This document shows, piece after piece, positions 3,605 to 14,394 of a stretch of DNA of 22,209 nucleotides. The stretch covers positions 1 to 22,209 of IMG/VR virus record IMGVR_UViG_3300010150_000203; one strand, written 5' to 3'. Made by a program: the position numbers and the translations under genes. Source of the stretch: a virus. Numbering within the stretch: position 1 is the first letter of the stretch; each line of letters begins with the position of its first letter. The notes beneath the pieces are model-generated. The model did no database searches. It worked only from the letters and a program-made list of their open reading frames with translations, and was not told the origin of the DNA.

Positions 3605-3868
3605 TTATTCTACTATAAAAATGCACTCGCCTGGGCATTCCTCAGCTGCTTCACGGACAAGATCTTCCTGACCAACAGGAACTCTTGCTAAACCCTCTTC
3701 ACCCTGTGGGTTACTATGTATTAAGCTAAATATTTGTAGTTCTCTAAAATTACCGACAATTTCTTGTACATACGCTAAACCATCGTTTTGCATAACAAAC
3801 ACATCTGGAGCTATTTCAGCACAAAGTCCATCACCAGTACAGAGATCTTGATCAATCCATACTTTCAT
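3605..3868 (-). CDS. Single-cluster ferredoxin ([4Fe-4S] or [3Fe-4S] type)
   Basis: 87 residues. The N-terminus KVWIDQDLCTGDGLCAEIAP has Cys10-x2-Asp13-x2-Cys16, and the C-terminus has ECPGECIFIV with Cys78-Pro and Cys82. This matches one-cluster ferredoxins of the Pyrococcus/Streptomyces kind, where C-x2-D-x2-C plus a distal Cys-Pro bind a [4Fe-4S] (Asp ligand) or [3Fe-4S] cluster. It is not the plant-type [2Fe-2S] ferredoxin known from cyanophages. The spacing from Cys16 to Cys78 is longer than usual, with an insertion around residues 48-65. Likely a cytoplasmic electron carrier. It follows the 246-aa DUF6065-like gene by 14 nt, so that protein is a candidate redox partner. The start has little Shine-Dalgarno, which suggests low or coupled translation. 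Confidence 0.85.
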   Translation of the reverse strand: MKVWIDQDLCTGDGLCAEIAPDVFVMQNDGLAYVQEIVGNFRELQIFSLIHSNPQGEEGLARVPVGQEDLVREAAEECPGECIFIVE

Positions 3869-3882
3869 AGTTATATGATAAC

Positions 3883-4623
3883 TTATTTTTTGTTTCTTCT
3901 AGTTATATCCCTATAGCCACCAGTAAATTTAGATCTAAGCCTAAAGCTCTCGTTATTAATAGTCTTATGATCATCTTCACTAAAAGTTGTAACATCTAAC
4001 TCTATTTTTTCCCTCTTAAAAGGAATTGCATGTAAAAAAGGCATCCCTCTTTTTAAAAGTATATCCCCCTCTGAGTGCCATATACTTGGAAAGTTAACTT
4101 GATGAAAACTGTCAGTTTCAACAATACCTGGTAATACAGTAAAGTTATCATTTTTGTGAAGTAGTGGTGGAATAAATAGTGTACTCCAACCAGGTGGTGT
4201 AAAAAAGAACCAAGGACTTGTAAATTTAACAGCTCGTTTATAATCTTTTTCATCAAAAGGATAAGTAGGAAGTTGTTCAAAGTCATGAAACTCTATATGA
4301 CTACTGTTTGTATTTATAGAATTAGATTCAAAATGAAAACTATCACCATGTCTTTGTACTAATAAGTCATACCACATTGGGATTATGTATCCTTGTGTAA
4401 AGTAATCAACTACAGCAGGGCATTTTTTAACTGTATGAGAATTGTAATCTTTAAGCATATCACCCATCTTAGGAAAGGGTTGTGCATGTAGCACTGCTAG
4501 ATCTAAGTTTAACTTTTGAAACCATTCAGGTATCATCTGACTAGCTGGTACTGGTGGTGCTATCTCTACTAACGGCTCGTCTATTGTAGCAAATCGCATT
4601 GTTTTAGTTTGAACCCATTTCAT
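3883..4623 (-). CDS. DUF6065-like protein, copy A
   Basis: 246 residues; family of unknown function that I associate from memory with DUF6065. Conserved blocks shared with the 271-aa paralogue: PEWF (32-35), KCP (67-69), GYIIPMW (78-84), TPPGWS (142-147), IVETD with His174 (167-174), RGMP (192-195) and PFKRE (201-205). Prolines, Trp and invariant His/Asp/Glu suggest a beta-rich, possibly metal-binding fold, but no catalytic chemistry is known to me. No signal peptide or membrane segment. The start overlaps the preceding oxygenase-like gene by ATGA, and the ferredoxin follows by 14 nt. An internal TATAAATA lies in the coding sequence and is judged fortuitous. Confidence 0.7.
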   Translation of the reverse strand: MKWVQTKTMRFATIDEPLVEIAPPVPASQMIPEWFQKLNLDLAVLHAQPFPKMGDMLKDYNSHTVKKCPAVVDYFTQGYIIPMWYDLLVQRHGDSFHFESNSINTNSSHIEFHDFEQLPTYPFDEKDYKRAVKFTSPWFFFTPPGWSTLFIPPLLHKNDNFTVLPGIVETDSFHQVNFPSIWHSEGDILLKRGMPFLHAIPFKREKIELDVTTFSEDDHKTINNESFRLRSKFTGGYRDITRRNKK

Positions 4624-5126
4624 AACTTATTCTCAAAAAACCAATGATCTGGTTCTGCAAAATGCAGAAATAACATTCCTACTCTATTCCAACTTGGAAC
4701 TGGAAAATCTTCTCGCCAGTGATCTTGTTCCTCACCATAAAAAGCTAGTGCCTCATTTTCGTCTAAATTATATTCTTGATCTTCTACTATTAGTGGCCAT
4801 TGTACATTTTGATACAAACACACATCAAGAGTATAAGTACATGCGTTTGTGTCTTTGTGTTTGTGTAATTTAGCATCTTCACCCTCATAATGAACAATAA
4901 GACCATAAGTAAATTTTAAAGTATCAGATCCAAATATTTCTTTAGCTTTATCTAATACTTCATCTGCATAATTTTTTATACTTGAATTTTGTTCACTTGA
5001 TTCTTCAAACCTACCAAATCCCTCAAAGTATTCAAAGTTCTTATAATTGTTATTTAGATAAGATTTTAAATGATTAAAAGATTGATGGTTTAATAGATCC
5101 TTAACAAGTTTTACTTCTTTAGCCAT
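4620..5126 (-). CDS. 2OG-Fe(II) oxygenase-like protein (short)
   Basis: 168 residues. The C-terminal half has the double-stranded beta-helix signature: LHKHKD (87-92; His90-x-Asp92 as the iron pair), TLDVCLYQN (99-107), ENEALAFYGEEQDHW (123-137; distal His136), then NRVGMLFLHFAEPDHWFF (147-164; Arg149 as candidate 2-oxoglutarate anchor). It is shorter than classical prolyl hydroxylases and unlike the two other oxygenases in this window, so it is a separate subfamily. Predicted reaction: 2-oxoglutarate-dependent hydroxylation of an unknown substrate in the cytoplasm. It overlaps the upstream gene by 16 nt and the downstream one by 4 nt, so the DUF6065-like and oxygenase proteins are made together. 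Confidence 0.7.
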   Translation of the reverse strand: MAKEVKLVKDLLNHQSFNHLKSYLNNNYKNFEYFEGFGRFEESSEQNSSIKNYADEVLDKAKEIFGSDTLKFTYGLIVHYEGEDAKLHKHKDTNACTYTLDVCLYQNVQWPLIVEDQEYNLDENEALAFYGEEQDHWREDFPVPSWNRVGMLFLHFAEPDHWFFENKL

Positions 5127-5935
5127 TTTTTCCTCGGCAGTAGTTTTTTAGGTCTTCTAGCTAAAGCGTCAGGATATAAAGTATTAGTTTCTCTTCTATT
5201 TACTGCTGATCCAACAATCATATTCCATCTTTCACTAAATGTTTCATTCCAGTCAACCCATTCAACTTTTACAGGCTTAGAGAAAAGTATATTAAACATT
5301 ACAGTATCGTGATTTAGCTCCAGTGTATCTTGTTTCGGATCAGTCCACTCAAACGCCCAAGATAAACCCCTAGACCAAGAATATATAGGCATAAAACCAC
5401 CAATCAAAGATATAGGTAGATTTTTTCCTGCGTTTCTATCACTAGGTACAATATCTAACCATACTTCTGGATCATCCGTAAAAAACATAAACGGCATAGT
5501 TATTTGCATGACAGGTTGCTCTGGATTAGCCCATGCTTCCTTTTCTTCCATAATAATGTCTCTAAAAGGTCCATGATGTTTTACTGCACCATGATAATTA
5601 GCTTGCATAGAATAACCACCAAATCGATCTACTTCATCAGCAAATTGATTTTGTGACAAGTTTACTTTTACATGACTGTAAGGAAAATACATTTCATACA
5701 ATCTGTTTCTCATAAACTGTGTTGAGACACAGCCATTAGGTGCTTTTACAAACTTTCTAGGCGCACCATAATTAATAATAGGTATACTGCTTTCCTCTTC
5801 GTGTTCTTTACCTACTGTATTTGCTAATGGTTTAGGTATAGTGAAAGCTACTCTTGGTAAATTTCTACTAGTTTCTCTGATTGGCTGACTCCATAAAGAT
5901 CCGATGTCAGGTATTTTTATTGGACACTTACTCAT
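5111..5935 (-). CDS. Unknown protein, distant relative of the DUF6065-like pair
   Basis: 274 residues. It starts MSKCPIKIPDIGSLW; a good ribosome site (AAGGAAGGA) lies upstream of ATG 5935, which overlaps the previous gene by 8 nt. The central part (about 140-235) has MFFTDDPEVWLDIVPS, LIGGFMPIYSWSRGL and FNILFSKPVKVEWVDW. The order FFT..P.W....P, then Gly/Phe strands, then a final Pro-Val strand parallels the FFTPPGWS...P..PFKRE layout of its two neighbours, so I infer remote homology and a shared fold. Function unknown; the C-terminus is strongly basic (RRPKKLLPRKKWLKK), which could bind nucleic acid or an acidic surface. Confidence 0.6.
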   Translation of the reverse strand: MSKCPIKIPDIGSLWSQPIRETSRNLPRVAFTIPKPLANTVGKEHEEESSIPIINYGAPRKFVKAPNGCVSTQFMRNRLYEMYFPYSHVKVNLSQNQFADEVDRFGGYSMQANYHGAVKHHGPFRDIIMEEKEAWANPEQPVMQITMPFMFFTDDPEVWLDIVPSDRNAGKNLPISLIGGFMPIYSWSRGLSWAFEWTDPKQDTLELNHDTVMFNILFSKPVKVEWVDWNETFSERWNMIVGSAVNRRETNTLYPDALARRPKKLLPRKKWLKK

Positions 5936-6743
5936 CTAATATTCCTTCCTTAGTCCATTGTTTTTTATTCTTTTGTGTGAGCCAACGATACCATCCATTT
6001 TGCCTAGTTCTTTCGGCAGCTCTACTTTTATCATAATAGTCTTTGTCTTGATCATCCATTTCTGCGACTTCTAATTTCTTTAGGGTTTCTCTTTTAAATG
6101 GAATTATTTGTATTAGTGGCATACCCTGTCTAAATGTTCTTTCACCCTGACCATGATATAAAAATGGAATATTCATTTGATGATAAGAGTCTGTTTCAAC
6201 GATACTAGGGAATATTTCTATGTCTATATTTCTGTGATACCACGGATCCATAACCATTATTGACCAACCAGGTGGAGTAATTATATCCCAGGGGTTCTCA
6301 AACTTTAAAGCTGTATGAAAGCTATGATCGTGTAACGGCATTTTACCTATAGATCTTGCATCGTGAAATGATATTGTGTTTTCAAATGCGTGCTTGTTAT
6401 ACCAATTTAAACCAGAATCTCTATCATGTGATATTTTAAGATCTAACCAAAGTGGTATGATGTAGCCCTCGTGCATAATATCTTTTACTGTAGGGCATTT
6501 TTTTAAACTATTATCTTTGTAAGGTACAGTATTCCAACTTTCGTCATGACCTTCACCATGATTTCCGTCTCTCATCTCAGACCACTCACGCTTTAGGTTC
6601 TTATACCAAGCAGGTATAAATTCTTTAGCTGGTCTAGGTGGTGCAAGATCTATATATTCTGATTTTTGTGTTAAAAATTTTATAGTATCAAATTCTACTT
6701 TGTGTTGTTTAGTTTCTAAAAATCTGTTGTACTTTTTCCCCAT
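5928..6743 (-). CDS. DUF6065-like protein, copy B
   Basis: 271 residues from ATG 6743. GTG 6746 is directly upstream, but AAAGG 6 nt before the ATG favours ATG. A clear paralogue of the 246-aa protein: KCP (82-84), GYIIPLW (93-99), TPPGWS (156-161), IVETD with His188 (181-188), QGMP (206-209) and PFKRE (215-219) occur in the same order and spacing. It has an extra His/Gly/Glu-rich insert near residue 60 (NHGEGHDESW) and a basic, aromatic C-tail. Function unknown. Two copies plus a distant third within 3 kb, mixed with 2OG oxygenases, point to a joint pathway or to heteromeric assembly. Confidence 0.7.
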   Translation of the reverse strand: MGKKYNRFLETKQHKVEFDTIKFLTQKSEYIDLAPPRPAKEFIPAWYKNLKREWSEMRDGNHGEGHDESWNTVPYKDNSLKKCPTVKDIMHEGYIIPLWLDLKISHDRDSGLNWYNKHAFENTISFHDARSIGKMPLHDHSFHTALKFENPWDIITPPGWSIMVMDPWYHRNIDIEIFPSIVETDSYHQMNIPFLYHGQGERTFRQGMPLIQIIPFKRETLKKLEVAEMDDQDKDYYDKSRAAERTRQNGWYRWLTQKNKKQWTKEGILDE

Positions 6744-6753
6744 CACTTACCTT

Positions 6754-7461
6754 TCATTCCAACAATAATGTTGCTGTCATCACAGCTCTTAAGTTTTCTT
6801 CATTTTCGTCAACATCAACAGTATTAAATGATATTGTGTCACCAGTTTCCCAGTGAATTATCTTAATAGATGTAAAATTGTCTCTTAGATACTGTATTGC
6901 AGTGTTAATGCTACTAATTTGATCAGGTTTCCATTCAATGACAACTTTTATACCAGAATTATCACCTATAAGTGTTTCAGCGCCTTTTAAGACATCTACT
7001 TCTTTACCATTAGCACTTATGACTAGAAGATCACAATTTGCTAAAAGTAAGCTATCAATAGTTATAATATCTGTTTCTTGTGTGCTGTCACCAAAGATCA
7101 TATCTAAAATGCCACCAGATTTATTATCATCGAAAAAATACATAGTGCCTGTACCATTTGTATCAGAGCAGGCTTTTTCTATATTTGTTTCGTCAGAAAA
7201 GTTTTGATCTAGTATTGCAAAACGATCTGCATTAGGCTCAATGTTTGTAGTGCTTACGCCAGCAGACTCTAATATCCCTGTAGCTACACCACATCCAGCA
7301 CCTACAATGCAAGCATCTGTAAAATCGCTTGCATTATCTACTAAGTAAAACTCTAATGACGGATTAATGTGATCTAGATCCCCCACTTTACCATATTCAG
7401 ATTTATCATTTTCATCTATATTTATAGTGATACCATTTCTAAATGTTTGTGATTGTGTCAT
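6754..7461 (-). CDS. FkbM-like SAM-dependent methyltransferase
   Basis: 235 residues. Rossmann-type features: the SAM-binding loop CIVGAGCGVATGILESAG (51-68), an acidic residue at the end of the next strand (NIEPN, Glu75), then an FkbM-style C-terminal block: TIDSLLLANCDLLVISANG (134-152), KEVDVLKGAETLI (153-165) and VVIEW (173-177). In typical FkbM proteins the segment reads D-L-L-K-I-D-V-E-G; here it is DLLVISANG, so the usual Asp is absent and activity may be altered. Predicted O-methylation of a glycan or small molecule, or possibly of a fibre protein in this context. The ribosome site is weak. It sits between the oxygenases and the DUF6065-like genes. Confidence 0.65.
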   Translation of the reverse strand: MTQSQTFRNGITINIDENDKSEYGKVGDLDHINPSLEFYLVDNASDFTDACIVGAGCGVATGILESAGVSTTNIEPNADRFAILDQNFSDETNIEKACSDTNGTGTMYFFDDNKSGGILDMIFGDSTQETDIITIDSLLLANCDLLVISANGKEVDVLKGAETLIGDNSGIKVVIEWKPDQISSINTAIQYLRDNFTSIKIIHWETGDTISFNTVDVDENEENLRAVMTATLLLE

Positions 7462-7473
7462 AGCTACATCTTA

Positions 7474-8166
7474 CTACATTAAATCTATTTTTACATTTTG
7501 TGGTAAATACATAGGCGGCAACCCATCAAAATCAATAGTGTGTCCTAACCATGTAACAATTGCATACTTACTGCCTTTTATGACAGGCATTGCTTTGTGT
7601 GAGTAAGCCCAATTACTTGGAAACAGCACTAAAGCTGGTTTATCTGGTTTAATCATTTCATCAAAGTGTGTAAAGTATGTGCCGCCACCCTCGTAATCAC
7701 TAGGATTCAAAAGTACTAAAGCTGATAGATGACGAGGATTATGTGGTGCATAGTCACAGTGAGCTTTATACTCTTGACCACCTTGATACCTCAACAATGT
7801 ATACCCCTCATCAAAATGTATACTTATTTCATACTTTTCGCAGTAATTGTTGACATACTCTAATAATTTATTAGAAAGCAGTTCATTAATATTTTTAAGA
7901 TTTTTTATGTAGTCTTCTTTATTATTTTTAACAGCTTCCCTTATAAGTCTTGCTTCGCCTGGTTCATTTGCATATTTGCTTATGGGAAACAATTGATTAG
8001 TTCTTATGTTTCCACCTTTATGACCTTTGCCAATACCAGCATTTTCAAAACCAAGTTTAAAGTCTTTATCTTGATCTATTTCCTCAATAGCATCTATAAT
8101 CTTTTGTGCTTGATCTTGCGACAAAAAGTCTTCATAAACTTCCACACAACCCATCGATAGTTTCAT
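7474..8166 (-). CDS. Prolyl-4-hydroxylase-like 2OG-Fe(II) oxygenase
   Basis: 230 residues with a textbook P4H core: YTLLRYQGGQEYKAHCDYAP (122-141) supplies the iron pair His136-x-Asp138; LSALVLLNPSDYEGGGTYF (147-165) gives the GG turn; FPSNWAYSHKAMPV (182-195) gives distal His190; and GSKYAIVTWL (198-207) has Lys200, where prolyl hydroxylases use Lys to hold 2-oxoglutarate. The reaction is O2- and 2OG-dependent hydroxylation, likely of a protein side chain or small molecule. ATGA overlap with the preceding oxygenase implies tight co-translation. Such oxygenases are known core genes of marine T4-like phages; the true substrate is unknown. Confidence 0.88.
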   Translation of the reverse strand: MKLSMGCVEVYEDFLSQDQAQKIIDAIEEIDQDKDFKLGFENAGIGKGHKGGNIRTNQLFPISKYANEPGEARLIREAVKNNKEDYIKNLKNINELLSNKLLEYVNNYCEKYEISIHFDEGYTLLRYQGGQEYKAHCDYAPHNPRHLSALVLLNPSDYEGGGTYFTHFDEMIKPDKPALVLFPSNWAYSHKAMPVIKGSKYAIVTWLGHTIDFDGLPPMYLPQNVKIDLM

Positions 8167-8879
8167 ATAATTTGTCTCCTTGTTAGTTCTTCAGGGGGTA
8201 CTCCGTCTAAAAACGAATCTAGATCAAAACCACTGGAACAGGCAACAAGAAAGGCTGACTTTCTACCATTTAATAAAGGGGTTGTTGCGTGTGAATAAAT
8301 AAAAGCACTTGGCATAATTACCACACTGCCTGCTGGTGGTTTGTAAGGATCGTGTTCAAAGTATTCAAAATCTAAAGCGCCACCTTGATGTTTATCAGTC
8401 AAATAAGTTAAAGCTGTAATTCTTCTTAAAAATGGTGCGTTCCAGAACCTACCTGTTGCAGGATTTCTGGTTGATCTATTATCGCCATGATAATTCATAT
8501 ACTTAGGTGGCTTATAAGTAATGTACTGATATTGCTCCATCCAATGTATTTCATCTTTTACCATTGGGTATATTTCTTTATAATTATTTATTTTGTCTAA
8601 AGTGTTTCTTTGTACTTGCCAAAAGTATTCTTTACTTGCTTTTTCATTAAACTCTATTTCAGGATCGAATCTTATAGGACCGTTCTCATTTTTGACTGTT
8701 TGATAATTACCACCTCTATCATATTCATTGTTATCAATGACTTTTTGTTTCCAACGATCAACTTCTGCATTCATAGTCTCTACAACACCTTCAGGGACTT
8801 CTATACAATTCTCGTAGGCTACTACACCTTCAACTATTTTTTTGGGTTCTACTTCTTTCCATAATTTACTTAAAACCAT
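8163..8879 (-). CDS. 2OG-Fe(II) oxygenase family protein
   Basis: 238 residues. The N-terminal half is charged and helical. The DSBH core has YQYITYKPPKYMNYHGDN (117-134; His131-x-Asp133), ITALTYLTDKHQGGALDF (154-171; GG turn), GSVVIMPSAFIYSHATTP (184-201; distal His197) and GRKSAFLVAC (205-214; Arg206 as candidate 2OG ligand). All four key positions are present, so it is probably active. It differs from the next gene in having Arg, not Lys, at the 2OG site, so the two are not simple duplicates. The start is a TAATG overlap with the 155-aa gene. A role in modifying virion proteins or host molecules is inferred from position only. Confidence 0.85.
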   Translation of the reverse strand: MVLSKLWKEVEPKKIVEGVVAYENCIEVPEGVVETMNAEVDRWKQKVIDNNEYDRGGNYQTVKNENGPIRFDPEIEFNEKASKEYFWQVQRNTLDKINNYKEIYPMVKDEIHWMEQYQYITYKPPKYMNYHGDNRSTRNPATGRFWNAPFLRRITALTYLTDKHQGGALDFEYFEHDPYKPPAGSVVIMPSAFIYSHATTPLLNGRKSAFLVACSSGFDLDSFLDGVPPEELTRRQII

Positions 8880-9365: not shown

Positions 9366-10262
9366 TTAGACTAGATTTGGTCTTGTTTCTAGCAACTCTT
9401 TTAAGTAATCTACTGTGTTTTCTAAAACATCGCTTTTACTAGCTTTATAAGTATCAAAGTCAGCGATGAAAGCATCTTCATCAAAATCTGCTGGAACTTC
9501 GCCTAATTTATAAAGACAGTTAGCAATAGCTTTGTCAACCATTTGTAATGCGTCAGCTTTTTCAGCTGATAAAGCATCTGCGTCAATTGATAATTGCATA
9601 TCTTCTCCTATAGTGTAAGTCTTACCACACAAGTTTAACATAAGTATGGCCATGATTGTGTCCATATTTTCGTTCTTTAATATTTGATCAAGAACACTTT
9701 GTGGTATTTCTAGTGTAGTAGAATTTTCATAAGTATTGAATATTTTATAGTGTGTCCACCACCAACCTTCGCCCTCTTCCCCATGTTCTCTACCATCTTC
9801 GTGTAAAATATCATCTGTATCTATATAACTATCATCACCACTTAAAGTGATTGCCATTGGTGATATTGCTTGAAAAAAACTATCTTTATATAGGTATGGT
9901 TTATTTTCTTTTACATAAACATCGTCATATAAATTTTCTTGTATAGAGTATATAAATCCAGTCATCCAAAATATTGACTCAGGTTCATATGTTACATTTT
10001 CGTCTAAGTCATATAAAAAATCTTTACGCCTAATGTAAAAATCACAATTGTTTGCACCATTTAGATCGATATCTACATATCCATAATTACCAGAAACAGT
10101 AAAGTTTTTCTTTATTCTAGGTGCTTCATTGTATAGATTTTGATAAGTATGATCAGGATCTAGTAAATCAGGGTTTCCCATGTGTCGACCAGGCATGTAC
10201 CAAAGATTATAATTATCATAATCTTGATCTTCTCTACTGTAATAAATGCGAACAGTAGACAT
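9366..10262 (-). CDS. Fibre-operon protein with pullulanase-associated (CBM41-like) N-terminus
   Basis: 298 residues. The start TVRIYYSREDQDYDNYNLWY closely follows the pattern of the bacterial pullulanase-associated domain ([20 protein letters not shown] in family members). Further on, CDFYIRRKDFLYDLDENV and SIFWMTGFIYS match the later strands of that fold (FIIHKGD...D, then E-I-W-L). The middle contains an acidic, Trp-rich patch (GEEGEGWWWTHYK, about residue 163-175). The C-terminal third is helical (SAEKADALQMVDKAIANCLY onward). The domain binds alpha-glucans in enzymes; here no catalytic domain follows, so glycan recognition on the host is inferred. It starts 2 nt after the 219-aa adhesin-like gene. 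Confidence 0.6.
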   Translation of the reverse strand: MSTVRIYYSREDQDYDNYNLWYMPGRHMGNPDLLDPDHTYQNLYNEAPRIKKNFTVSGNYGYVDIDLNGANNCDFYIRRKDFLYDLDENVTYEPESIFWMTGFIYSIQENLYDDVYVKENKPYLYKDSFFQAISPMAITLSGDDSYIDTDDILHEDGREHGEEGEGWWWTHYKIFNTYENSTTLEIPQSVLDQILKNENMDTIMAILMLNLCGKTYTIGEDMQLSIDADALSAEKADALQMVDKAIANCLYKLGEVPADFDEDAFIADFDTYKASKSDVLENTVDYLKELLETRPNLV

Positions 10263-10264
10263 TG

Positions 10265-10924
10265 TTATACCTTAAATGTTTTTACAGTACCACTTGCATA
10301 ACCAGTTACATCCGTAAGAATACCTGTTAGTGGTAGATCTTGAGAAATAATAAATATAACACCACCACCAGTTGTTGTCTCACCACTAGCTTCTATTGTT
10401 CCATATCCCTGCAATTTTCTTGCACAAAGGACTACAATGCCACCACCATGATTGACATTATCGCCTGCACCACCTTGTAGAGCTGCTGGTGTTGTTTGAC
10501 CACCATGAACTATTACGCCCTCTATAGCAATATCTGGGTGGTTAAAATACTCTGCTCCAACAGTAGGTGCTGTAGCTGTATATCCATTTCCATTACCACC
10601 AAGAGAGTTTGTTACCGCTGCGACTGCACCACCTCTAAGAGTTCCTGATGTCGAAACTCCACCAACTCTTCCAATCTTTGTATCAGATTGATTAGTTGAG
10701 GTTGGTGCCATTCCTAAACTATTTCTTACGAAAACTCTATATCCTGCTGTATCCAATACGATACCTGGATCTATTGTTAAATTGTTATAGTGCATATCTC
10801 TAGTAAGAGTTGTGTTAGATGAGATAGTAACATTTCCGTCCATACCTGATCCATAAATGCTATCAGGGATCACATCAAAAGTTTCAAAATCGCTTGGTAC
10901 TTGACCTATTTCTGTAATTGCCAT
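10265..10924 (-). CDS. Glycine-rich adhesin-like fibre protein (short paralogue)
   Basis: 219 residues, AGGAG 5-9 nt before ATG 10924. N-terminal block DSIYGSGMDGNVTISSNTTL, then RDMHYNNLTIDPGIVLDTAGYRVFV, aligns well with DEIYGYGQDGDVTLASNTTL, RDMYYNDLSINANVTLDTNGYRVFV in the larger protein upstream. The rest is rich in Gly, Ala and Thr with GGGIVVLCARKLQGYGTIEA and a final GGGVIFIISQDLPLTGIL strand pair. Glycine-rich sandwiches of this kind are used by phage adhesins (gp38-like) for receptor binding; that is the proposed role. It is the intact comparison for the TAG-interrupted paralogue, sharing both its N- and C-terminal blocks but lacking the long Tyr/Asn/His repeat insert. Confidence 0.75.
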   Translation of the reverse strand: MAITEIGQVPSDFETFDVIPDSIYGSGMDGNVTISSNTTLTRDMHYNNLTIDPGIVLDTAGYRVFVRNSLGMAPTSTNQSDTKIGRVGGVSTSGTLRGGAVAAVTNSLGGNGNGYTATAPTVGAEYFNHPDIAIEGVIVHGGQTTPAALQGGAGDNVNHGGGIVVLCARKLQGYGTIEASGETTTGGGVIFIISQDLPLTGILTDVTGYASGTVKTFKV

Positions 10925-10932
10925 AATTACTC

Positions 10933-11247
10933 CTAACTACTTGGATCTGTATCTGTCGCTGCAATATTAAACACAGTAACGACTGTTCCTGCTGTTGCAG
11001 AACCAGATCCACCTGTTCCAGCCGCAGCTGCTAATGTTAAACCTGACGGCAAAGGTTTAGTTCCTGTTACAAATACTACTGCGCCTCCACCAGCATTATA
11101 AGATTGAGAAGCTGTACCACCAGATCCACCAGCACCACCAGGGTGATAGTTTGTTGGGTTGCTATCGTTGTTTGTCGGATTATTGTTACCACCATAAGAA
11201 TACCCATAAGAATATCCGTAAGAGTATCCGTAGCTATAACCATATGA
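10933..11247 (-). other. In-frame C-terminal continuation of the adhesin-like gene beyond a TAG codon
   Basis: After the TAG at 11250-11248 the same frame stays open for 104 codons to a second TAG (10935-10933). It continues the repeat directly (SYGYSYGYSYGYSYGY), then NNPTNNDSNPTN, a Gly-rich stretch, and GGGAVVFVTGTKPLPSGLTL. That last block aligns with GGGVIFIISQDLPLTGIL at the C-terminus of the 219-aa paralogue. No in-frame ATG or ribosome site restarts translation, so this part is made only by readthrough or suppression, or is a lost C-terminus after a nonsense mutation. The AGGAG for the next gene follows immediately. Confidence 0.8.
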
Positions 11248-11560
11248 CTAATTATTACCTGGATATGAGTAGTTATTACCAGGATATGAATAGTTACTAC
11301 CAGGATAACTATGCGTATGTGCATAGTGGTAATGATAATAACCTGTTGCATAGTTATTTATGGGTGGACTTGGATGCCAGTGATAATGTGTGTGAGAACC
11401 ATAATTTGTTGGGTTAGATCCGTAATTAGTACTATTACTACCTGAGTTTGAGGGGTTTGAGCCACTGTTAGATCCATAGTTTGCACCATTGTTGGCACCA
11501 TAGTTTGCACCATAGTTTGTTGGATTAGTATTACCAGGATAAGAATAGTTATTACCTGGT
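11188..11560 (-). repeat. Tyr/Asn/Gly/His-rich tandem repeats in the adhesin-like gene
   Basis: Low-complexity coding repeats. From the N-terminal side: NNYSYPGNTNPTNYGANYGA, then NYG/NSG/NPTNYG units; a His-rich segment (HTHYHWHP, YYHYHYAHTH; 11311-11394); three 7-residue units (SYPGSNY, SYPGNNY, SYPGNN); the TAG; then four SYGY units. The DNA units are 21 bp and 12 bp, suited to slipped-strand change or recombination. The 219-aa paralogue lacks this insert. Confidence 0.85.
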
Positions 11561-12285
11561 GTGGATGCGTCTGGGGCTGGTGCGCCATCTGTACCTTGTG
11601 AGCTAGCAGTAGTATCATCTGCGTCTGCTCTAATTGTTCCATCTCCTGAAACAGCTTTAGCTACTACTAAAACTACTCCACCACCTACTGCACCTGTACC
11701 TGCTGTTGCTGAGTTACCATCTGCGCCTTTTCCACCATCTGCACCTACAACTTGATAATCAGCCCAACCAGAGTCTCCTCCGTCTGCGCCACCACTAGCG
11801 TTTGCTGTTATCGCACCATCGGATGCGCCTGATCCACCACCTAAAAATTTAAAAGATTCAGTAGATTGATCAAACTTTTGCCCAGCTAGAGCTACTGACA
11901 AGTTAAAGAAATCGTTTTCACCATCAAAAAAAGTATTACCAGAGTGTTCTCCGTCTGTTTGTTCTGAAGATCTACCACCTAAAGTGTCTGTAGCATCTGT
12001 ACCTTTATCAAAACCACCTTTAAGTGTTCCTGCTGTTTCTTTACTTGTAAATCTACCTATACGAGATGTAGCGTCTGCAAATGTCAATGTACCTCTTACA
12101 AAAACACGATACCCATTAGTATCTAATGTGACATTGGCGTTTATCGATAAATCGTTGTAATACATATCACGAGACAATGTCGTATTTGAAGCAAGGGTAA
12201 CATCACCATCTTGCCCATAACCATATATCTCATCGCCACCTAATCTATCCAAAAAGATTGGCTCAGGTACTTGTATTTCAGGCAT
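11248..12285 (-). CDS. Glycine-rich adhesin-like fibre protein, ending at TAG within a repeat
   Basis: 345 residues from ATG 12285, chosen because it forms a TAATG overlap with the preceding stop; a frame extending to 12339 would sit inside that gene. Order: N-terminal block (residues 14-55, YGYGQDGDVTLASNTTL...GYRVFVRGTLTF) shared with the 219-aa paralogue; Gly/Ala/Asp-rich middle (about 150-210) ending GGGVVLVVAKAVSGDGTIRA; then Asn/Tyr/Gly repeats and a His-rich segment at 298-325. The TAG stop replaces the Tyr of the repeat NNY-SYPG. The frame continues to 10933 with the expected C-terminal block, so the intended product is probably about 450 residues. Likely a host-receptor adhesin at the fibre tip; alternating His residues recall the HxH iron sites of T4 gp37. 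Confidence 0.75.
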   Translation of the reverse strand: MPEIQVPEPIFLDRLGGDEIYGYGQDGDVTLASNTTLSRDMYYNDLSINANVTLDTNGYRVFVRGTLTFADATSRIGRFTSKETAGTLKGGFDKGTDATDTLGGRSSEQTDGEHSGNTFFDGENDFFNLSVALAGQKFDQSTESFKFLGGGSGASDGAITANASGGADGGDSGWADYQVVGADGGKGADGNSATAGTGAVGGGVVLVVAKAVSGDGTIRADADDTTASSQGTDGAPAPDASTPGNNYSYPGNTNPTNYGANYGANNGANYGSNSGSNPSNSGSNSTNYGSNPTNYGSHTHYHWHPSPPINNYATGYYHYHYAHTHSYPGSNYSYPGNNYSYPGNN

Positions 12286-12614
12286 TAGCTTACCTCTACA
12301 CCAGAAACTTGTATATTTACTGAAGTTGCTGCTGAACATTTTGCAGCAACAGAAGCATTAGCAGGTATAACCATAGCTAAGTCAATAACTGTAGTTGTAT
12401 TTGCTTGAACAGTTGTATCACCAAAAATGATATGTTGATCACCAGTTGTATCCCCTGTAGGAATAAGTTTGATCTCCACTGTTCTGTCTGTTGCTGTATA
12501 GTTAGCTAACATAATTTGCTTAATAATACACTTGTTAGAATTACTGAAAATTTCTGCTTCAGATGTTCCAAGTGCAGTTACTTCGGCTAACTCAGCTGCG
12601 TTATATACTGCCAT
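12285..12614 (-). CDS. Small virion beta protein, copy 2
   Basis: 109 residues, AGGAG upstream of ATG 12614. Mostly Thr/Val/Ala-rich beta strands: KCIIKQIMLANYTATDRTVE, then a loop with GDTTGDQHIIFGDTTV, VQANTTTVIDLAMVIPANAS and a closing strand SVNIQVSGVEVS. The length and strand order are the same as in the other 109-aa protein (14065-14394), including a final Ile/Val strand ending VEVS versus VEIT. A trimeric fibre cap, collar or decoration role is plausible; no specific family is recognised. Confidence 0.7.
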   Translation of the reverse strand: MAVYNAAELAEVTALGTSEAEIFSNSNKCIIKQIMLANYTATDRTVEIKLIPTGDTTGDQHIIFGDTTVQANTTTVIDLAMVIPANASVAAKCSAATSVNIQVSGVEVS

Positions 12615-13080: not shown

Positions 13081-13203
13081 TTATTTACCTTCTCCTAAAT
13101 AGTGTTGAGGTGTAAACTTGCAACTAATATAGTTGACAAGTGCTTTCCCACCAACTTTATTATATTCTAAACTTTCGTGATCTATGGCTTTTAATATCGA
13201 CAT
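13081..13203 (-). CDS. Tiny ORF (40 aa)
   Basis: Encodes MSILKAIDHESLEYNKVGGK and ends HYLGEGK, TAA. Its last codons supply the GGAGAAGG ribosome site of the next gene, and its start lies 11 nt after the 43-aa ORF. One Cys, mixed charge, no membrane segment. No family recognised. It fills what would otherwise be an unusual gap in a gapless operon, which is the main support. Confidence 0.45.
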   Translation of the reverse strand: MSILKAIDHESLEYNKVGGKALVNYISCKFTPQHYLGEGK

Positions 13204-13214
13204 AACTTAATTAT

Positions 13215-13346
13215 TTACTTCTCCTCTATATACCAAGATATCATAACTTCTGAATCTACAGTATGTGTATGTGCAACGGCTTCTTCTGCTGTATCAAATT
13301 CCATATTAAAATCTGTATCTTCATATTTTTTTAATAACCAACTCAT
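13215..13346 (-). CDS. Tiny ORF (43 aa)
   Basis: Encodes MSWLLKKYEDTDFNMEFDTA followed by EEAVAHTHTVDSEVMISWYI, EEK, stop. It begins 2 nt after the lectin stop codon. The alternation of acidic and aromatic residues looks like a compact folded domain, not random sequence. Function unknown; the codon use and operon position are as for neighbouring genes. The upstream ribosome site is poor (AT-rich). Confidence 0.5.
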   Translation of the reverse strand: MSWLLKKYEDTDFNMEFDTAEEAVAHTHTVDSEVMISWYIEEK

Positions 13347-13348
13347 AT

Positions 13349-14056
13349 TTATATAAATCCCTGTGCGTCATAATAATCTGCTAAGGCAGCAACATTTGAT
13401 GATGAAAGGTTACCATTGTATGCACCACAAGCATACAGTTTTCCATCTCCAAATTCAAAGCTACCATAATTACCAAAGTGATATTGCTGATTAGTAAAGC
13501 TAAAGTCACAATCACTAATAGTAATTAATCTTGGGTCATTACCTCTAATATTGTTATATAAATCACTAACATTGGTGCTGTTTCTGTATAAAGTCTTATT
13601 ACCACCAACATTATTGTGATAATAGGCGTTACCACTTCTGTATGCACCTAAATAATCATTGCCACTAGAAGAAGTAGCTATAACAGCTTGAGTGTCATTC
13701 GTCTGCATAACCCAAAACATAGTTAAGTTGCTGCCAAGTGAGTTGTTACCCAAAGAAAAACTAAAGTTGCTAGCTAAGGTAAAATAGCTATGAGTTCCAC
13801 TTGTATAATTTACATTATATAAAGTTGCGTCATGATTATTACCTGTTTCATCAGTCCAAGTGCTACCACTACCACTATAATTATTTGCTGTAAAAAGGAA
13901 TCTTAAACTCATTCCACTAGGAACTGGTGGGAATCCCTCTGCAAATCTATCCTGTTGCTTTATAAACCTGTGTTCTTCCATGCTCAAAATACCCTTGTTT
14001 CCAGTGGTATTCTGTGCTGGTATAGCACCTCGGTAACCATAAATACTTTTACCCAT
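13349..14056 (-). CDS. LamG/concanavalin-like lectin domain protein
   Basis: 235 residues with AAAGGA before ATG 14056. After a 50-residue N-terminus comes a LamG-type jelly roll: LRFLFTANNYSGSGSTWTDE, TGNNHDATLYN (the W-x-D-x-(T/S)-G-N-N-(x)-D-(A/G)-T-L signature), SYFTLASNFSF, NLTMFWVMQTND, ATSSSGNDYLGAY, and a closing strand plus helix GKLYACGAYNGNLSSSNVAA then LADYYDAQGF. Such domains bind glycans or act as structural knobs in phage tail fibres. It sits between the two small 109-aa proteins in the fibre operon, so cell-surface recognition is the likely role. Confidence 0.75.
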   Translation of the reverse strand: MGKSIYGYRGAIPAQNTTGNKGILSMEEHRFIKQQDRFAEGFPPVPSGMSLRFLFTANNYSGSGSTWTDETGNNHDATLYNVNYTSGTHSYFTLASNFSFSLGNNSLGSNLTMFWVMQTNDTQAVIATSSSGNDYLGAYRSGNAYYHNNVGGNKTLYRNSTNVSDLYNNIRGNDPRLITISDCDFSFTNQQYHFGNYGSFEFGDGKLYACGAYNGNLSSSNVAALADYYDAQGFI

Positions 14057-14064
14057 AGGTTCCT

Positions 14065-14394
14065 TTATGTAATTTCAACTACTGAAATGACTATTTCTGC
14101 GTCTGACGCTGCACTTGCCCAAGCTCTAATTTGGTCGCCAGTTTCTAAAACTAGCTTTCCACCAATAGGGTTTAGTGAAGTATCAGCTGGGACAGCAACA
14201 GTATGAGCTAATGCTTTTGCAGTAGTTGTAGAACTATCGTAGTAATCTACATAGACATCTACATTTGCAGAACCATCTACATTTGCTATTTGACATAACA
14301 AAACAACAGCAGTTGTTGCTGATGGACACTGATAAATCGATGTGTCAGCAGTAGTGCTTAAATCAGCATTTACAGATTTATAACTTTCAGCCAT
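14065..14394 (-). CDS. Small virion beta protein, copy 1
   Basis: 109 residues. AGGAG lies inside the last codons of the giant fibre gene just upstream of ATG 14394. Composition is Ala/Thr/Val/Asp-rich: STTADTSIYQCPSATTAVVL, CQIANVDGSANVDVYVDYYD, then ALAHTVAVPADTSLNPIGGK and GDQIRAWASAASDAEIVISV, VEIT. Same length and strand plan as the 12285-12614 protein, so the two are probable paralogues. Position directly after the giant fibre suggests a cap, connector or assembly factor for it; unproven. Confidence 0.7.
   Translation of the reverse strand: MAESYKSVNADLSTTADTSIYQCPSATTAVVLLCQIANVDGSANVDVYVDYYDSSTTTAKALAHTVAVPADTSLNPIGGKLVLETGDQIRAWASAASDAEIVISVVEIT

Follow-up and report, generated by a model that had tools for sequence, protein, structure and literature searches.

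A private in-frame TAG in a repeat-rich adhesin-like phage gene is best explained as a recent nonsense allele or a sequence error

In one metagenomic phage contig, a one-base substitution that turns a Tyr codon into TAG ends an adhesin-like gene that every relative keeps whole, and we consider it very probable that this private change is either a nonsense allele or a sequence error. A programmed event at the codon is unsupported; the data point to an ordinary nonsense change or a mistake in the sequence. The contig is a 22,209-base IMG/VR virus record, analyzed here over its whole length (the window), and the features discussed below are these:

10933..12285, minus strand: adhesin-like structural gene, rich in Gly codons and 450 aa long in the nearest relatives; here a single in-frame TAG interrupts it
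11248..11250, minus strand: the in-frame TAG at codon 346, where the three nearest relatives have TAT (Tyr)
10936..11247, minus strand: the 104 codons 3' of the TAG, comprising the remaining (SYGY)n repeat and a conserved C-terminal block
11197..11251, minus strand: repeat tract of 55 bases in which nine third codon positions, one of them in the TAG, set the window apart from the relatives' contigs G001, G002 and G003 alike
10265..10924, minus strand: 219-aa paralogue downstream of the adhesin-like gene, with the N-terminal core in common and without the Tyr/Asn/His-rich insertion
12285..12614, minus strand: upstream 109-aa gene, conserved beside the adhesin-like gene

The adhesin-like frame runs from an ATG at 12285 to the TAG at 11250-11248, continues through 104 open codons, and closes at a second TAG at 10935-10933. 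The repeat around the stop reads GSNYSYP-GNNYSYP-GNN-TAG-SYGYSYGY, such that Tyr is expected where the TAG stands. The initial annotation had described a TAG at a repeat Tyr followed by 104 open codons, and both position and context hold on the minus strand. By a simple stop frequency, an open run of this length has a chance of ~0.007, and in the window the other five TAG stops have only 0, 3, 4, 11 and 30 open codons beyond them. Because the long run is improbable and those after the other TAGs are short, we take the 104-codon extension to be genuine former coding sequence.

The initial annotation had also proposed comparison with related phages. A search of viral contigs with the read-through protein returned 33 loci, 31 of them with the full gene, and searching again with the family alignment brought in seven further relatives, for a total of 38. 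None of the 38 carries an internal stop in the gene; their frames, of 437-551 aa, are open from the conserved N-terminus through the conserved end (...NIxxxxTDPxx). The nearest by protein identity are L002 and L003 (97% each) and L004 (92%), and in all three the codon at the TAG position is TAT. Between L002 and L003, which are distinct IMG/VR records, the gene shows a single base difference. Across the relatives, the repeat tract varies in both the number and the order of its units. Two degenerate patterns written for the repeat junction with TAG matched no other viral contig; the TAG is thus private to this one contig. The gene has no relative in bacterial or archaeal genome contigs, and neither DNA nor protein comparison with the phage collection yields an isolate relative.

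We then examined the codons beyond the stop. Over the 104 downstream codons, the window differs from L002 by 16 synonymous and 0 nonsynonymous changes, all at third positions, a pattern with a neutral probability of ~1.5e-9 if changes were random. When changes are polarized with L004, eight synonymous and no nonsynonymous changes fall on the window's own branch. Together, these patterns place the downstream protein under selection until late on that branch, showing that, until very recently, this part was translated and the selection on it was purifying. The eight-to-zero trace would be the same for a stop that is young, for an error and for a stop that is read efficiently; because the TAG is missing from other contigs, only the first two fit. 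The combination of a private stop, an undecayed downstream frame and intact relatives is that of a recent nonsense allele or a sequence error.

Elsewhere in the gene, the bulk of the amino-acid differences from L002 lies in codons 144-232 (11590-11856), before the repeat domain, and upstream of the TAG the window's branch carries eight nonsynonymous and three synonymous changes.

We give about an even chance to a very recent nonsense allele, which would truncate the protein at 345 residues, and somewhat under an even chance to a base-call or assembly error within the repeat tract; on assembled sequence without reads, the two are nearly even. The TAG is the second of the nine tract differences in coding order and lies at the edge of the tract. 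At all nine sites the window stands alone against a base shared by G001, G002 and G003, and the density of differences is several times that of the whole aligned region (~97% identical). The divergent tract is the (SYGY)n repeat, whose units appear reshuffled, and it could have arisen by unit shuffling, by exchange with an unseen strain, or by chimeric short-read assembly. An exact search for the tract in other known phages gave no match. All other window genes comparable with relatives are intact, and over shared genes 53 nonsynonymous and 147 synonymous changes are unique to the window, not a clear excess when set against the 26 and 101 that only G002 carries. Because the remainder is clean and this excess is missing, a poor-quality contig is not indicated, which argues slightly against error. 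Against a real allele is that it requires a damaging variant to be the consensus assembled from its sample.

The likely consequence of a real allele depends on what lies beyond residue 345. Searches of Pfam, PHROGs and PDB sequences gave no match for the adhesin-like gene. Its N-terminal core resembles the 219-aa paralogue strongly (hhalign 99.7%, E 3e-27), whereas the C-terminal blocks compared alone align weakly, over 26 columns (probability 9.7%, E 0.003); the initial annotation's match between the gene's C-terminus and that of the paralogue is accordingly weak for the block itself, the strong likeness being that of the core. For the L002 protein, which is intact, the predicted structure is of low confidence overall (mean pLDDT 53, pTM 0.46): ten-residue blocks score ~60-90 in parts of both the N-terminal core and the C-terminal block, and below 50 in the repeats. 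Predicted strands lie at residues ~25-80 and 204-242 in the core and at 379-439 in the C-terminal block, with the low-confidence repeats between them. Fold searches with this model found nothing in the PDB; low-TM collagen-like matches in a viral library were not used. If the allele is real, the model suggests that the 345-residue product would lack the C-terminal strands and keep the N-terminal core and most repeats, and such a product is probably non-functional.

Single nonsense changes of this kind are known in phages. In kayvirus 812K1/420, a nonsense substitution splits the ribonuclease H gene into two in-frame ORFs, and the stop that splits its tail-fibre gene stems from a 77-bp deletion (PMC6445280). 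As in the first of these, one nonsense substitution here divides a gene and leaves the frame unchanged; the kayvirus, however, is a sequenced isolate, whereas ours is one metagenomic contig without reads, in which error is possible.

That the TAG is real and fixed in its population, with readthrough or suppression frequent enough for both 345- and 450-residue forms to be made, is highly unlikely. Programmed readthrough would give two fibre forms of these lengths, as in the coat protein of phage Qbeta, and we accord it a very slim chance. Infection by Qbeta depends on its A1 protein, which arises by readthrough of a stop codon (PMC12469967), and in both cases the frame of a virion gene stays open for a long stretch past a stop; the difference is that ours occurs in one contig only and the relatives lack a stop altogether. 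Downstream conservation on the window's branch is expected of a translated extension, but a stop that is simply young predicts the same. Further, all 38 relatives keep the extension and none has the stop, which is missing from other viral contigs as well. The codon immediately after the TAG is TCA, and we found neither a stimulatory 3' context nor a stimulatory RNA structure: the RNA fold 3' of the stop has a z of 0.32, and 122 of 200 shuffles fold equally well or better.

Decoding of the TAG by a phage or host suppressor tRNA, or its recoding in this phage lineage, is scarcely credible. The TAG does occupy a Tyr position, one base away from TAT or TAC, yet it is the sole in-frame TAG among 25 window genes, and the frame closes within 0-30 codons after the five other gene-ending TAGs. 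TAG terminates six of the 25 genes (at 619, 852, 7474, 12623 and 21791, and the adhesin-like gene itself), which is five others, not the at least six counted by the initial annotation. Its judgment that general amber recoding is unlikely nonetheless stands: stop usage and the frames closing after other TAG codons are grounds for rejecting it. ARAGORN called no tRNA in the window or the relatives' loci, and the Rfam tRNA model found nothing above cut-off in the whole contigs of 19 relatives, which reach 85 kb and are possibly fragments. One candidate on the L020 contig scored 24.7 bits against a cut-off of 29, and ARAGORN calls no tRNA there. Recoding of the code 15 type brings many in-frame TAGs and avoidance of TAG as a stop, neither of which is seen here. 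Code-15 crAss-like phages recode TAG to Gln, carry suppressor tRNAs and show a marked gain in coding density (PMC9523058); both cases have an in-frame TAG in a phage structural gene, but ours is a single one, it stands where Tyr is expected, the TAG stops nearby are normal, and the searches turned up no tRNA.

The idea that the TAG codon turns a host-range protein reversibly on and off, suggested by a repeat-rich gene whose unit number and order differ between relatives, has next to no chance of being correct, given that the change is a substitution and not one of repeat length, that no relative has the off state, and that nothing switch-like was seen among the window's genes. Among the options raised by the initial annotation, a recent nonsense mutation and a sequencing error therefore fit all the evidence (0 of 38 relatives with a stop, TAT at the position in the nearest three, and a junction context absent from all other viral contigs); readthrough or suppressor forms and switching have no support, as the stop is not conserved and no tRNA, RNA element or switch was found.

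Several neighboring genes merit description. A 298-aa protein (9366-10262), which adjoins the adhesin-like pair and is kept in the family, matches the pullulanase-associated domain PUD (PF03714) at a score just short of the threshold. A module at 13199-14065 containing a 235-aa gene (13349-14056) lies outside the aligned blocks of the L002 and L003 contigs (G001, G002); a similar gene occurs in only one relative of the set, and the module is likely a variable cassette. The cluster at 3605-8879 encodes a ferredoxin, two DUF6065-like proteins, an FkbM-type methyltransferase and two 2OG-Fe(II) oxygenases, the last of which bear a distant likeness to cyanophage PiuC-type proteins.

Nonsense alleles that split phage genes in frame are already known, and the TAG as it stands matters little. 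It does carry a caution: when a stop in a repeat-rich phage gene is seen in one contig only, readthrough should not be proposed until relatives have been compared. The gene belongs to an uncharacterized Gly-rich family with a Tyr/Asn/His-rich insertion and repeats reshuffled among close relatives, and it may be a candidate host-contact protein of uncultured phages.
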